Virus record (IMG/VR): IMGVR_UViG_3300017765_000054
Span: 1-24,960 of that record
Direction: 5' to 3' (one strand)
Origin: a virus
Length of the DNA stretch: 24,960 bases
The translations under genes and the position numbers were made by a program. The notes beneath the pieces were generated by a model. The model saw only the letters and a list, made by a program, of their open reading frames with translations. It was not told the origin of the DNA and made no database searches. This document shows, in pieces, positions 2,391-15,294 of this stretch (the stretch's first letter is position 1; the number at the start of each line of letters is the position of its first letter).

Positions 2391-3674
2391 TTAAGCTCCT
2401 ACATATCCAAGTGGGTTATAGTGCGAATCCGCAAATGCTTGCGGGGGTCTATCGGTTGCCCTGGCATCTTTGATACCAACCGCCAAATAACGAAAAGCAT
2501 CTGCAGCATGGCTCGACCAATCGTGAACAGGGGTGTTACGAAAACTTCTAAGTCTCTCATTGTAGGCTCGGTGATACTGCCGTAAGGCTTCGAGCCCCGG
2601 TTTTGTGAGCTCCGCATCAAACCAGCAGCGTGGTATAAGCATCTGTGCAGCATGGAGCCCATCCTCGACAGGCAGCTTTGGAACCACCCTAAAATTAATC
2701 CCTAGATCCCAGGATACCTCGCGCCGGCTCTTGCCTGAGCCCAGCTCACGAACCTCAATGTCATGCGGCGCGTTATGGCTCCCATACAAATATTCTTTTT
2801 GCTGCAAAACAGCAGCGTAATGGGGCAAGCCCTCGCCCCTGTTCTCGTAAAAATCTATGACATGCACAGCCCGGCCAACGCTTTGGGTAAACCAGATAGC
2901 CGTGCTATCGCCTATGCCCAGATCCCACCAGGTATCAACCCGGTATGCCGGGTCATATGGCACACTGCTGATGCGCCCCATTTCATGGATCTGCTGCAGC
3001 TCTTTGCCGAAAACAGCACCTGGCACATTAGCCACCCAAGAGCACTCAAATTCCTGCTGGTACTGGTCAGCTGACATCATGGACCTGGCAGCATCCAGCT
3101 CTTCTGCATCCAATATGCCGGTCTCACTGGCCTTGTGGATTGCCGTGTACCAATCGTCCTGGCTCTCAGCAGCCGTATAAAGCTCATAGAAAGCGTTGTG
3201 GCCCTTGGGTGTACCAATGAACAGCGCCTTGCCCTTACGATCGCTCAGCGCCGGCCTAATGATCTCAGGGAACAAGCTCTCCGGCATGTCAGCCATCTCA
3301 TCAAGAACGGCCATATCCAAATATATTCCACGCAGGCTGTCAGGATTCTCAGCACCCAACAGCTGTATCCTTGCACCATTAGGCAGATCACACCTCAGCT
3401 CAGTCTCATGGAACCTTGCCATTGGTATCTTGCCGGCAAACTGCTTGAGGTAATCCCAAGCAACAGCCTTAGCCTGCCGATAGGTGGGCGCTATGTAAGC
3501 ACAGCGAGGGTTGGTATGCTGGTTAAGCACAGCTTCCCTTAGCAAGTGATTAATCGCCATGACTGTCTTGCCAGCTCGGCGGTGCAGCACGACTACGCCC
3601 CAGCGCTTCTGGGACAGCTCAGAGTGGATCTGAGCCTGCAGCGGCCTTGGGGAATAGGGGATCTCAATGTTCAT
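2391..3674 (-). CDS. terL: Terminase large subunit (DNA packaging ATPase/nuclease)
   Basis: The motor ATPase that pumps DNA into the prohead and cuts it. Walker A is LHRRAGKT, Walker B is MAVLDEMAD, and the coupling motif is FIGTPKG. The nuclease half begins with DTWWDLGIGDSTAIWF, whose Asp is metal-binding, and ends near SSHAADAFRYLAVG. The product from the ATG at 3674 is about 427 residues starting MNIEIPYSPRPLQAQIH, which is where I would expect this family to begin. The frame stays open upstream to a GTG at 3791 and an ATG at 3767, so up to 39 extra residues are possible. No candidate start has a strong ribosome-binding site. The gene follows the small terminase subunit and precedes the portal, the usual podovirus packaging order. 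Confidence 0.95.
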   Translation of the reverse strand: MNIEIPYSPRPLQAQIHSELSQKRWGVVVLHRRAGKTVMAINHLLREAVLNQHTNPRCAYIAPTYRQAKAVAWDYLKQFAGKIPMARFHETELRCDLPNGARIQLLGAENPDSLRGIYLDMAVLDEMADMPESLFPEIIRPALSDRKGKALFIGTPKGHNAFYELYTAAESQDDWYTAIHKASETGILDAEELDAARSMMSADQYQQEFECSWVANVPGAVFGKELQQIHEMGRISSVPYDPAYRVDTWWDLGIGDSTAIWFTQSVGRAVHVIDFYENRGEGLPHYAAVLQQKEYLYGSHNAPHDIEVRELGSGKSRREVSWDLGINFRVVPKLPVEDGLHAAQMLIPRCWFDAELTKPGLEALRQYHRAYNERLRSFRNTPVHDWSSHAADAFRYLAVGIKDARATDRPPQAFADSHYNPLGYVGA

Positions 3675-3791
3675 TAGAGACAGGCTCTTGTCAGGGTTTA
3701 TATACGTTATAGACACAGCGCCCGGTCTTTTGGGGGGCCGGGGGTGGTCGCCAGGAAATCGAGACATTGTAAACAGGTGTGTATCCCGCAC

Positions 3792-8021: not shown

Positions 8022-8969
8022 ATGTTACACGAAACACCCGACTGGGCTGCCAGGCATCACTTTTTCTGGCACTCAAACCCAAGATCAAAAGATCGCGCAA
8101 AAGCGATTTACGAGAAAACCCACGTCAGAGTATTGGTTGACTGGGCTTTCCAAATCCTCAAATCACCACAGGCAGACCCGGCTGATCGCGCTAGAGCGCG
8201 TGAGATCCTCGACACGCTGCATTTCAATACTGGCTCAGCAAACATGATGGCCGGCGTTGCAACGCAGCTGGCCACTGACATGGTCCTGGTGCCTGACAAG
8301 GAAGGCAAGACCACCTCAGTAGAAGAGGCCAAGCAGGCAGCTATAGACAAGCTGAAGGCCTATAGGCCTATCAGCTGGGACAATGGCACTGATGAGATCA
8401 AGAAAAGCAAATATCTAGAAGAGCTGCCGCTAGTCATAGACAATGCCATAGCCGGCCTGCGGGAAGCTATGGCACGGGAGAACCGCATCCTGGGCGAGAT
8501 CGCCCTGATGGATACGCTGCCCGGCAATGCATTACCTCATAACACTCGCCCTGATTATGTGCGGCGCGGAGACCTCAAAACGAAATGGTCAAAGCCTGCC
8601 AAGACTAAATCTGGGTGGGGTAGCGTTTCAGCGCCTAAGAAACTATCCGGCATGTGGGAGATGAACTCTGTCTACCAGGCTGCCGGGTTCTGGGCTCTGA
8701 ATGGTCACCAGCCACCCTTTATCTTGTATGCCAGCACAACGGACTATGTGCTGTTCACGCCTGATAACGCGCCTGAGCTGCGTGACGATTTCCTCGCTGA
8801 TGTCGTCCAAGACATTCAGCACTATCACAAAACAACCGAAAACATCCTCAGGGCAGCCAGCAATAAGGACGAGCTGTTGGGCATGGTCTCACCAGACTGG
8901 TCCCTGCTGTGCTGGAAAGAATCGCCGGCATATCTGGATGAAGCCAAAAGGACATGGGGGTTGATATGA
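8022..8969 (+). CDS. PD-(D/E)XK-family nuclease, likely recombination exonuclease
   Basis: 315 residues with a strong GGAGAGG 6 nt before the ATG. The N-terminal half (WAARHHFFWHSNPRSKDRAKA...) is helical, and VEEAKQAAIDKLKAYRPISW resembles the lead-in of RecB/Cas4-like phage exonucleases. The putative catalytic core is GEIALMDTLPG, then RPDYVRRGDLKTKWS with the D-x-K-like pair (Asp184, Lys186), followed by MNSVYQAAGFWALNG, a QxxxY-type helix. The C-terminus (YVLFTPDNAPELRDDFLADVVQDI) fits the rest of such a fold. It is the first gene after the repressor on the rightward strand, followed by a putative annealing protein, which together suggest a two-component recombination module. The fold is inferred by pattern; the exact subfamily is unknown. 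Confidence 0.6.
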   Translation: MLHETPDWAARHHFFWHSNPRSKDRAKAIYEKTHVRVLVDWAFQILKSPQADPADRARAREILDTLHFNTGSANMMAGVATQLATDMVLVPDKEGKTTSVEEAKQAAIDKLKAYRPISWDNGTDEIKKSKYLEELPLVIDNAIAGLREAMARENRILGEIALMDTLPGNALPHNTRPDYVRRGDLKTKWSKPAKTKSGWGSVSAPKKLSGMWEMNSVYQAAGFWALNGHQPPFILYASTTDYVLFTPDNAPELRDDFLADVVQDIQHYHKTTENILRAASNKDELLGMVSPDWSLLCWKESPAYLDEAKRTWGLI

Positions 8970-12950: not shown

Positions 12951-13101
12951 GCCTAATGGACCCGGTCATAGCGGCCTTTTTAGAGCCCTTGGGGCCGGCA
13001 ACCTTTGTCATGGTGCCATATACGTAGGCATCGCGCTTCTTGCCCTTCAGCCCCTTCTTAGCGGCCTGGGCCATAAGGCTTTTCTCTAGTCTCTCAGGCA
13101 T
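12943..13101 (-). CDS. Small basic phage protein, MPERLEKSL type (52 aa)
   Basis: Read directly from the sequence: ATG at 13101, TAA at 12943-12945. The product reads MPERLEKSLMAQAAKKGLKG, then KKRDAYVYGTMTKVAGPKGS and KKAAMTGSIRRG. A block LKG(E/K)xxDAYVYGTMxK is a recurring small phage protein, commonly encoded beside the KTPAWQR protein. Its ATG overlaps the 3' end of the endolysin gene by 8 nt. Probable DNA- or capsid-associated protein; no activity is predicted. Confidence 0.75.
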   Translation of the reverse strand: MPERLEKSLMAQAAKKGLKGKKRDAYVYGTMTKVAGPKGSKKAAMTGSIRRG

Positions 13102-13552
13102 TGATCAAACCTTTCCTATATCCATTTTTTCTGTCGTATGTGAGCAGCTCTTTGCGTGGATCTGGCGCCCAGCTGCAGTGAACCCAGCCAGTGTTACCGC
13201 CCGTGTAGCACTCTAGAATTAATTGATCGAAATTTAGGTGGTCGCGTATCCACTCAGCCAGAACAAGGTTATCAATCCCAGCAACCTCGAAATCAGCTGC
13301 CGCACATTTGCCATCGGTGCAGCAATGCTGTGACGTGATTTTTGAGCCTATGGCAACACACAGCTCCGGGCTTCGGAACCCAGATGATACCATGAAGGGT
13401 CCGAACTTATCTCTGATGGGCTGTAATATGTGCTCACACAGCAGCTCAAGTGCTTCTATCTCATCTGTGTTGGGCAGATTTGGTATGCCCTTTCTCTCCG
13501 CTGTCTGGCTTTTGCACAGCTCGTCCAGGGTAAAATTAGTAGATAGCCTCAT
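13094..13552 (-). CDS. M15-family peptidase endolysin
   Basis: 152 residues from the ATG at 13552, which lies in an ATGA overlap with the holin gene and has AAAGG upstream. The frame is open to 13645 but the extra region is the holin gene in another frame. The metal-binding residues fit the M15_3 D-Ala-D-Ala carboxypeptidase/endolysin family: His76 in ITSQHC, Asp87 in AAADFEV, and His125 in GWVHCSW. GPFMVSSGFRSPEL is the usual substrate-side segment. The odd insertion CCTDGK between His76 and Asp87 is longer than in many relatives. It probably cleaves peptidoglycan cross-links at the end of infection once the holin has opened the membrane. Confidence 0.85.
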   Translation of the reverse strand: MRLSTNFTLDELCKSQTAERKGIPNLPNTDEIEALELLCEHILQPIRDKFGPFMVSSGFRSPELCVAIGSKITSQHCCTDGKCAAADFEVAGIDNLVLAEWIRDHLNFDQLILECYTGGNTGWVHCSWAPDPRKELLTYDRKNGYRKGLINA

Positions 13553-13950
13553 GCCTTTTTCCTGTTTATTAGCTGCAAGCCCTGCTTGCCAAACCGATAG
13601 CCAAAAGAGCTGCCGATCACGATGTAGAGCATGTGGTGAAACCAATCAGGAGTGTGTTGGTCGAGAAACACAAACCCGTTTTTTACATACTCTTGAGTCC
13701 AAGGCAGGAAGCAACCAGTCAGGACAAGCACAAACCAAATTGTCCAAATTTCATCTTTGATGCTGTCGCCCATGTGATCAGTCAGCCGCTGTTCCATAAG
13801 CGTCTGGCTTGTTGCTTCTGTCTCGTAAACTCTGGCCTCAGCTTTTTTCATAGCCACCTTGGCCTCAGTCTCAGCCGCTTTTGTTGCCGCCTTTGACTTT
13901 AGCCAGCCGCCAGCCAGATCTGCGATTGGCCCTATCAATAGCTGCAGCAT
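13549..13950 (-). CDS. Holin-like membrane protein (GTA/3TM holin type)
   Basis: 133 residues. The N-terminal part MLQLLIGPIADLAGGWLKSK is amphipathic, then an Ala/Glu/Lys-rich coiled coil (residues 17-55). Two membrane segments follow: WTIWFVLVLTGCFLPW (about 70-86) and WFHHMLYIVIGSSFGYRF (about 102-121). The organisation, with SIKDEIWTIWF and TPDWFHHML, is what I associate with 3-TM holins of phages and gene-transfer agents. It is immediately upstream of the endolysin with overlapping ATGA, the normal lysis cassette arrangement. It would permeabilise the inner membrane. Confidence 0.75.
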   Translation of the reverse strand: MLQLLIGPIADLAGGWLKSKAATKAAETEAKVAMKKAEARVYETEATSQTLMEQRLTDHMGDSIKDEIWTIWFVLVLTGCFLPWTQEYVKNGFVFLDQHTPDWFHHMLYIVIGSSFGYRFGKQGLQLINRKKA

Positions 13951-14159
13951 TAGTGTTTCTCTGAATTAAGCCAGACCGCCAGAGAGCCTGTCATTGCTCC
14001 TGTGACTACGCTTATAAGACTGGCCTGTTGCGTTGTAAGATCAGGCTGAGATAACGCCCACTCAATGCAGCGTATGTAAACGCCTGTCATCACCAAGATA
14101 CAAAAACGTGGCAGTATCTTTAGCTCAAGCATTTTTCTTGCAATATCTTCTACTGTCAT
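13950..14159 (-). CDS. Small two-helix membrane protein, holin-like (69 aa)
   Basis: The protein MTVEDIARKMLELKILPRFC continues ILVMTGVYIRCIEWALS, with LTTQQASLISVVTGAMTGSL AVWLNSEKH. It has two membrane segments around residues 17-34 and 45-62, separated by a polar LSQPDLTTQQ loop. I recall similar small proteins with a 'DxTTQQxxxxSVVxGAMTGxF' block in marine phages near lysis genes. It may be a second holin or an antiholin. Its start overlaps the next gene's stop and it abuts the large holin-like protein. Confidence 0.7.
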   Translation of the reverse strand: MTVEDIARKMLELKILPRFCILVMTGVYIRCIEWALSQPDLTTQQASLISVVTGAMTGSLAVWLNSEKH

Positions 14160-14761
14160 TTTTGACTCTCCCGAATTGCCTTGAGGGTGTCCCTAATGCT
14201 CGGCGGCTTGGGCGCGTCAGGCACAAAGTCACAAAGGTATTCACGCGGAAACCACTCGCTCATTCCAAAGCTCATTGATTCTTGTGTGTTCCATGCGCCT
14301 TTATAAACGCACCATCGTTTCCCTTGGAAAACCTCGCAGACCACCAGCCGGCACACCACATGCTCTGGCTGCGCCTTTGCAGCTTGGCCTTTCAAGAACA
14401 ATACAAACAGGGTGATGGATGCAGCGCCAAATACTGCCATCATTATCCAAGCCACAATCTCAACAAACTTTTGACGGCGCTTTCTTTGCTTGTAGAGAGT
14501 TTCCTGTCGCTGCTTTCGGATCTGCCCTTCCATACGAACAAGGTCATCCCACTTTTTGCGGCCAAGCGTCATGGAGATCCATTGTTGCAATTCATATCTC
14601 TGTTGTTGCGCTTTCTCCTTAGCTGCAAATGCCTCAATAGCTTCCTGCTCTACAGACTTTCCATTGAAGAGCTTTTTAAATATTGGAGGGTTCTTGGCCT
14701 CTTTCTCAAGCATGTCCAAGTCGCTAAGCGCGCCCATCCACCTCGACAAGTCACTTGCCAT
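14156..14761 (-). CDS. Phage structural/lysis-region protein, main C-terminal part of a split gene
   Basis: 201 residues from the ATG at 14761. The frame is open further back to a TTG at 14836. The product begins MASDLSRWMGALSDLDMLEK and continues AKNPPIFKKLFNG, then a helical region, RKQRQETLYKQRKRRQ, a transmembrane segment (IVAWIMMAVFGAASITLFVLF, residues about 130-150) and a Cys-containing extracytoplasmic tail. It belongs to a phage family I recall with a continuous N-terminus (MDPIS...GFxxGRDIxxM). Here that N-terminus lies in another frame, 14805-14897, split by a 49-nt hairpin insertion. Without the insertion the protein would be about 230 residues. A sole ATG start without a ribosome-binding site suggests the long form is the biological one. 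Confidence 0.75.
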   Translation of the reverse strand: MASDLSRWMGALSDLDMLEKEAKNPPIFKKLFNGKSVEQEAIEAFAAKEKAQQQRYELQQWISMTLGRKKWDDLVRMEGQIRKQRQETLYKQRKRRQKFVEIVAWIMMAVFGAASITLFVLFLKGQAAKAQPEHVVCRLVVCEVFQGKRWCVYKGAWNTQESMSFGMSEWFPREYLCDFVPDAPKPPSIRDTLKAIRESQK

Positions 14762-14776
14762 TGATTCGATATCGCG

Positions 14777-14828
14777 TCCTTGTGTGAGGCTTACCCCCCT
14801 CCAGCTAAGCCAGAGGGGGGCAAGCCCC
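14777..14828 (-). repeat. 49-nt hairpin insertion between Gly codons, bypass-like element
   Basis: Going down the minus strand, codon GGG (14826-14828) ends the first frame; GGA (14777-14779) begins the second. Between them lie 46 nt. Bases 14828-14813 (GGGGCTTGCCCCCCTC) pair with 14801-14786 over 16 positions with two G-U pairs, around an 11-nt loop that contains the in-frame TAG stop (14807-14805). Five nt separate the stem region from the GGA. See the findings for interpretation. Confidence 0.6.
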
Positions 14829-14897
14829 AACGGCAAAGCCCTTTTTCAAAACGCCAAAGGCGGCACTGGCTGTTGCCATGCAACTTATCGGGTCCAT
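14805..14897 (-). CDS. N-terminal part of the split phage gene (30-residue open frame)
   Basis: The ATG at 14897 overlaps the stop of the upstream gene (TAATG). The frame reads MDPISCMATASAAFGVLKKG FAVG, then runs into the hairpin insertion (ACPPLA) and a TAG at 14807-14805. The GFAVG end matches the point at which the family continues as GRDIESMASDLSRWMGA, which is found 49 nt further on in another frame. This is therefore the missing N-terminus of the gene above, or a decayed start. As a stand-alone peptide it has no recognisable function. Confidence 0.65.
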   Translation of the reverse strand: MDPISCMATASAAFGVLKKGFAVGACPPLA

Positions 14898-15121
14898 TAG
14901 TAAAGCCTCTGATTAGAGTTTTCGGGGATCTCAACGGGCAAACAATAGGCAGTGATCTTGTCAGTACCAGCGCGGTAGAACTCATAGTTCCCGTAAGTTT
15001 TCACGACACGCGCGGCATACCATTGGCAGTCAACCAAACTGCGAAAAAGCATTTTGTCGTGGATTAGCTTTTTGTTTTCGCCCAGCCCCAAATAGACACT
15101 GAGAACGAAAACTGTGAGCAT
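14897..15121 (-). CDS. Small secreted phage protein (74 aa)
   Basis: The protein starts MLTVFVLSVYLGLGENKKLI with a hydrophobic N-terminal segment (residues 2-12) that could be a signal anchor. It continues CQWYAARVVKTYGNYEFYRA, and ITAYCLPVEIPEN closes it. One pair of Cys (residues 32 and 59) could form a disulphide outside the membrane. The blocks MLxxLVLSVYLGLGENxKLI and RITAYCxPV are found in small proteins of marine phages near this same family of genes. It is immediately followed by the split gene (TAATG overlap). Function is unknown; a lysis accessory role is possible from its context. Confidence 0.7.
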   Translation of the reverse strand: MLTVFVLSVYLGLGENKKLIHDKMLFRSLVDCQWYAARVVKTYGNYEFYRAGTDKITAYCLPVEIPENSNQRLY

Positions 15122-15123
15122 GG

Positions 15124-15294
15124 TTATTTGCCTAGAAGTATGCCTATTAGCAGAAGAATTGTTGTGCCAGCAGTGCCAATCATAATGTGTTCAATGCGCT
15201 TTATACGTAGGATAGTTTCCCTCCATCGCTCAGCACATACCGCTTCATGTGTATCTATCTGGGCCTGTACAGATGCGGCTGTAGGCTTTGCCAT
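15124..15294 (-). CDS. Small XhlA-like membrane protein (56 aa)
   Basis: Read directly from the sequence: ATG at 15294 overlapping the TAA of the upstream gene, stop TAA at 15124-15126. The product starts MAKPTAASVQAQIDTHEAVC and has an AERWRETILRIKRIE heptad-like helix. A C-terminal transmembrane helix follows (IMIGTAGTTILLLIGILLG). The helix-plus-membrane-anchor form resembles haemolysin XhlA-type and other lysis accessory proteins. The gene sits between a fibre-associated protein and the 74-residue secreted protein in a tight operon. Confidence 0.65.
   Translation of the reverse strand: MAKPTAASVQAQIDTHEAVCAERWRETILRIKRIEHIMIGTAGTTILLLIGILLGK

Follow-up and report, generated by a model that had tools for sequence, protein, structure and literature searches.

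The window analysed here, a stretch of 24,960 nt of a marine phage from a viral record (IMGVR_UViG_3300017765_000054, positions 1 to 24,960), contains on its minus strand a gene whose coding sequence is divided between two frames. The first of these starts at ATG 14897 and comprises 24 codons, MDPISCMATASAAFGVLKKGFAVG (14826..14897), which correspond to residues 1-24 of the uninterrupted proteins of L008-L011. It continues with ACPPLA and ends at a TAG (14807-14805) six codons past the GGG of the last Gly. The second frame, GRDIESMASDLSRW..., opens with GGA 14779-14777, and the 206 codons that follow this Gly (RDIESMASDLSRW..., 14156..14776 including the stop) extend to the stop codon at 14158-14156. 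Between Gly24 (GGG 14828-14826) and Arg25 (CGC 14776-14774) a coding gap of 49 nt remains (14825-14777), of which GGA is the last codon. This arrangement of two frames, with GFAVG in front of the gap and the resumption 49 nt later, had been described in the initial annotation and was confirmed on the sequence. An automatic gene caller may choose TTG 14836 as start (minus strand, 14156-14836; 226 aa), a codon within the N-part that is in frame with the C-part; the split is hidden by that choice and the protein receives a false N-terminus.

The gene belongs to PHROG 32327, a family of unknown function which is also present in Roseobacter CRP phages. No Pfam match was obtained for the split-gene protein, and a fold search with its predicted structure matched uncharacterised phage proteins only. 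In the AlphaFold model (mean pLDDT 72) the junction is located in the loop that connects helix 3-22 with helix 31-51. A predicted M15 endolysin is encoded nearby (13094-13645).

A scan of IMG/VR revealed 80 relatives; in 79 of them G is followed immediately by (R/K)DI, and one, L002, carries the insert. No insert was present in any of the other 95 relatives fetched (72 distinct). Because the insert-free homologues run straight through the junction, the 49 nt are indeed an insertion. The joined window protein is identical to the proteins of L008-L011, which contain no insert, over residues 1-60. Homologues with a natural start at MASDLSRW would speak against a split gene; however, every homologue fetched extends beyond this point, with a start about 30 residues before it. 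Searching related phages for the same insertion yielded three more viral contigs. Besides L002, a scan with the hairpin pattern found L082, with a gene that has only 67% DNA identity to that of the window, and a pattern for any insert of 25-55 nt at the site returned L082 again together with the new carrier L089. The number of carriers may be an undercount, since the collections are stored in pieces and a pattern across a piece edge is missed, as happened with L002. Further pattern matches (L086, L088) and BLAST matches (IncC traF, Paraburkholderia, Paenibacillus and an Arthrobacter phage) were due to chance and contain no such hairpin.

The insert occupies exactly the same base in all four contigs, with a length of 49 nt in the window, 47 nt in L002, 45 nt in L082 and 48 nt in L089. 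Its 5' side reads in each case GGG followed in frame by GCU UGY CCC CCU CUR GCW UAG, which places the UAG (14805..14807, minus strand, near the hairpin top) at an equal codon position in the four carriers, and its 3' side reads AGGA followed by CGC GAU AU. The length difference between the window and L002 is one CA unit, and the coding parts are intact despite this change. In all four carriers both coding parts are without stops or frameshifts. No intact second copy of the gene was found in the carriers' records, which may be fragments of genomes with a copy elsewhere.

The hairpin formed by the insert (14786..14828, minus strand) has its stem base at the GGG codon. Instead of the 16-bp stem described in the initial annotation, which recognised the hairpin and understated its size, we counted 20 pairs, so that the stem has at least 20 pairs and a 3-nt top. 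For 66 nt a folding energy of -42.9 kcal/mol was calculated (z -5.4), and none of 200 shuffled sequences was as strong. Among 66-nt windows on both strands of the whole stretch (mean -14.6, sd 5.0) this is the strongest structure, with -45.5 against -34.9 for the next one elsewhere. All four carriers retain the stem, with 98.7% of the cells paired compared to 46-65% when the pairing is slid. The changes among the carriers include one double compensatory change from C-G to U-A and three one-sided changes that keep the pair. As 15 of the 20 pairs are invariant across the four sequences and the shuffle control was not exceeded, the covariation is support for the stem and not a proof of it. In Rfam 15 the element obtained only sub-threshold matches, none above the gathering score.

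In a protein tree the carriers appear in three places, which corresponds to three changes of the insert on the tree, and long-branch effects may have contributed to the placement of L089. A tree that holds the carriers together is rejected by the AU test for the four carriers (p 0.0015) as well as without L089 (p 0.002). The presence of the insert is therefore patchy and departs from the gene tree. The simplest history would be a single insertion that was later spread and lost through recombination with uninterrupted relatives. The codon CGC directly after the junction (14774..14776) occurs in 4/4 carriers and in 0/70 distinct uninterrupted relatives, and the stretch AAAAAGGGC upstream of the gap in 4/4 and 3/70, respectively. 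Measured against trios of uninterrupted genes of similar divergence, the conservation of the flanks is only moderately unusual (0.04-0.10) and may therefore reflect either short conversion tracts or function.

The C-parts of the window and L002 differ with dN 0.03 and dS 0.25. These values were not taken as proof, because the two sequences are recombinant and the differences may have arisen in copies free of the insert. Constraint on the N-parts of L082 and L089 is at least as strong as in uninterrupted relatives. Between the window (14750-15290) and L002 the comparison is a mosaic, in which identical stretches alternate with diverged patches; one such patch of 23 nt just past the landing site discussed below contains nine differences, all synonymous.

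We propose, with a probability of about 0.58, that a palindromic insert is made harmless in this gene through translational bypassing, similar to gene 60 of phage T4 but different in detail. Ribosomes would read the 24 codons as far as GGG, the putative take-off codon, where the very stable hairpin, with its base at this codon, would block normal decoding. An SD-like AAGGG about 10 nt upstream of GGG possibly assists (the 3' end of the stretch AAAAAGGGC, 14838..14846, minus strand, is about 10 nt away from the take-off codon). The peptidyl-tRNA-Gly would then leave GGG, skip the gap of 45-49 nt including the UAG, and re-pair with GGA just past the 3' foot of the hairpin. Decoding would restart at CGC and result in a family protein of 230 residues with one Gly at the junction, and ribosomes that do not hop would release a peptide of 30 residues with the end ACPPLA. 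The hop, the two hop codons and the stimulators are what we infer from the comparison of the four sequences.

With the four insert lengths all three frames are represented, and the frame across the gap would consequently be irrelevant; reading through the stop would not restore the protein in every carrier, and no single fixed frameshift would do so either. Joining GGG to GGA yields exactly the family sequence, with a single Gly, in four of four cases, and as judged from these sequences only an event indifferent to length would give the family protein in every carrier. The two codons specify the same amino acid and share the first two bases, the third base being different. Bypassing or another recoding had been suggested for the window from its sequence; that reading has gained comparative support from four records with one site, three frames, GGG and GGA, the UAG, the stem and intact halves, and the bypassing itself is still inferred. 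Counting against it are the UAG, which in all four carriers lies six codons after the take-off codon and not directly next to it, the take-off and landing codons, which agree in two bases and only by G/A wobble in the third, the short N-part of 24 codons, in which no nascent-peptide signal like that of T4 is known, and the covariation, which is drawn from four sequences with few changes. A hop from the GCU before UAG to an Ala codon was compared by hand in the four inserts and would be in frame in L002 only.

Translation might instead stop at the hairpin's UAG and be initiated anew at Met30 (ATG 14761, 14759..14761), which would yield a protein of 201 residues without the first 29 and reduce the N-part to a short leader peptide. 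Such a restart would be likewise indifferent to the gap length, Met30 is conserved (in uninterrupted relatives too), its codon is preceded by AGGA, and the position of the junction in an interhelix loop of the model implies that the shorter protein could fold. The spacing of 15 nt between AGGA and ATG is however too long for a good start. The N-terminal part is present in all fetched homologues and still constrained in the carriers. The five codons RDIES between the landing site and Met30 are kept as protein: only synonymous change is seen among the carriers, and the two codons that differ between the window and L002 do so synonymously. As the N-part and RDIES are both conserved, we consider a restart rather unlikely; GGG and GGA at the two ends would also be unneeded.

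It is doubtful, too, that the insert is simply a mobile or recombining palindrome in a dispensable gene, from which no full-length product is made and whose carriers are tolerated variants. The patchy distribution outside of one clade would fit, and a comparable case was found in the unrelated, mycobacteriophage-like L125 (IMGVR_UViG_2522572167_000002). Here an insert of 52 nt with a similar palindrome (TGG, 52 nt, CTC; hairpin 3731-3768; the gap ends in TGA) separates a Trp from a Leu codon and splits the gene of a minor tail protein (L125:3182-4928, minus strand). The N- and C-parts of this gene, of 387 and 178 residues, are collinear with three aligned family members, the long adjoining ORFs are open, and the joined query is matched over 80% or more of its length by 1107 phage records (mycobacteriophages and kin). 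L125 is one case only and may be a broken gene. The core GGGCTTGTCCCC is REP-like, being also found in Pseudomonas REPs. Each of the two inserts is preceded by an xyG codon and has xyA as its last three bases, which is roughly what a short target duplication would give (GG..GG and TG..TG); a near-matched landing codon would be supplied automatically by such a duplication. In the unrelated viral contig L126 a palindrome that shares the arms (GGCTTGTCCCCC...GGGGGACAAGCC; 8664-8702) is situated between two ORFs. Against an insertion without any product stand the halves free of stops and frameshifts in four carriers, the constraint on the C-part, and the compensatory change that preserves the stem in a diverged carrier. 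The element is moreover single-copy in each phage record, since a covariance model detected no copies elsewhere in related phages. Two scans of bacterial genome contigs with exact patterns gave zero matches for the element. A mobile palindrome, which had been named as an alternative from the outset, is thus suggested by these data as the origin of the insert and is not favoured as the whole account.

Readthrough of the UAG, alone or together with frameshifting, would bridge the inserts of L082 and L089 and give the full protein with 15-16 extra residues. It is very improbable, because further shifts, in opposite directions, would be required in the window and in L002, although a CA unit and a single base are all that separates the two. 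In addition, TAG serves in the window as a normal, if rare, stop codon (TAA 15, TGA 14, TAG 3), which also argues against amber recoding. Palindromes can mislead assemblers, but an assembly or sequencing artefact, considered initially, is excluded by three more contigs of diverged sequence and different IMG/VR dataset numbers with the insert at the identical base.

Natural bypassing is established for T4 gene 60 and for the mitochondria of Magnusiomyces capitatus, and Hau3 and Corndog are candidates (PMC5009743, PMC4351075). T4 ribosomes cross gaps below 56 nt with high processivity (PMC11194080), a range that includes the 45-49 nt described here. The bypassing proposed in the present gene would resemble that of gene 60 (50-nt gap; PMC5009743, PMC11194080, PMC3014915) in that a phage gene with gap-free relatives is interrupted by about 50 nt, which contain a UAG and a hairpin and are flanked by Gly take-off and landing codons starting with GG. 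In T4 these codons are identical (GGA), whereas here they are GGG and GGA; the UAG directly follows the take-off codon in T4 and lies six codons away here. The nascent-peptide signal of T4 is located about 30 residues back, but only 24 codons precede the gap here. T4 further possesses a separate 5' stem-loop in contrast to the single, much longer stem of the present insert, which occurs in several lineages at one site, whereas that of T4 is reported for T4 alone. Since the adjacent stop of T4 is not found here, we do not file the element as gene-60-type, although it would work like one.

The byp elements of M. capitatus (81 sites; PMC5009743) are likewise short frame-breaking blocks in coding genes, taken as skipped by the ribosome, and their take-off and landing codons are not always perfect matches. 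They differ in that they are read by mitochondrial ribosomes, whose decoding is relaxed, with an unused codon in the A site, and in that a genome contains many copies, whereas the present bacterial system has a single copy in each phage record. For the terminase of Streptomyces phage Hau3 (PMC5009743) and the Corndog tape measure (PMC4351075) bypassing in phage genes was also proposed from sequence or peptides. Both are without such a hairpin insert; the gap of Hau3 is much shorter and tied to a UUA codon, and Corndog lacks the usual start codon. REP and RPE palindromes (PMC3686654, PMC3733652) are small and G+C-rich as well, RPEs and a part of the REPs are found within genes, and the Pseudomonas REP class PF6 shares the core GGGCTTGTCCCC. 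In contrast to REPs no GTAG or GTGG tag is present at the foot, the GTTG or ATAG at the 5' foot being codons of the host gene, and unlike both classes the insert lacks further copies in these phages. For RPEs, insertion in frame is described, whereas the present insert contains a stop and breaks the frame.

Firm evidence for efficient bypassing of long gaps comes from a single phage gene, T4 gene 60, and from one group of yeast mitochondria, and a review from 2016 stresses this paucity. If the proposal is true, the gene would be a second natural phage system, with four natural versions from three lineages that vary in gap (45-49 nt) and stem. These would allow direct tests of the need for an adjacent stop, a nascent peptide and an exact codon match, and would show how a palindromic insert survives inside a gene without killing it.

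Two further palindromes were noticed. The pattern match in L083, an unrelated viral contig, was rejected as a carrier: the palindrome GGCTTGCCCCCCTCGGTAGAGGGGGG (3037-3062) lies inside another ORF and is read through in frame. Downstream of the gene L002 (5666-5698) and L015-L018 (5600-5632) have a second hairpin in common, identical among them (AAGCCATTGTTTTCATTACGAAAGCAATGGTTT), which may be a terminator.
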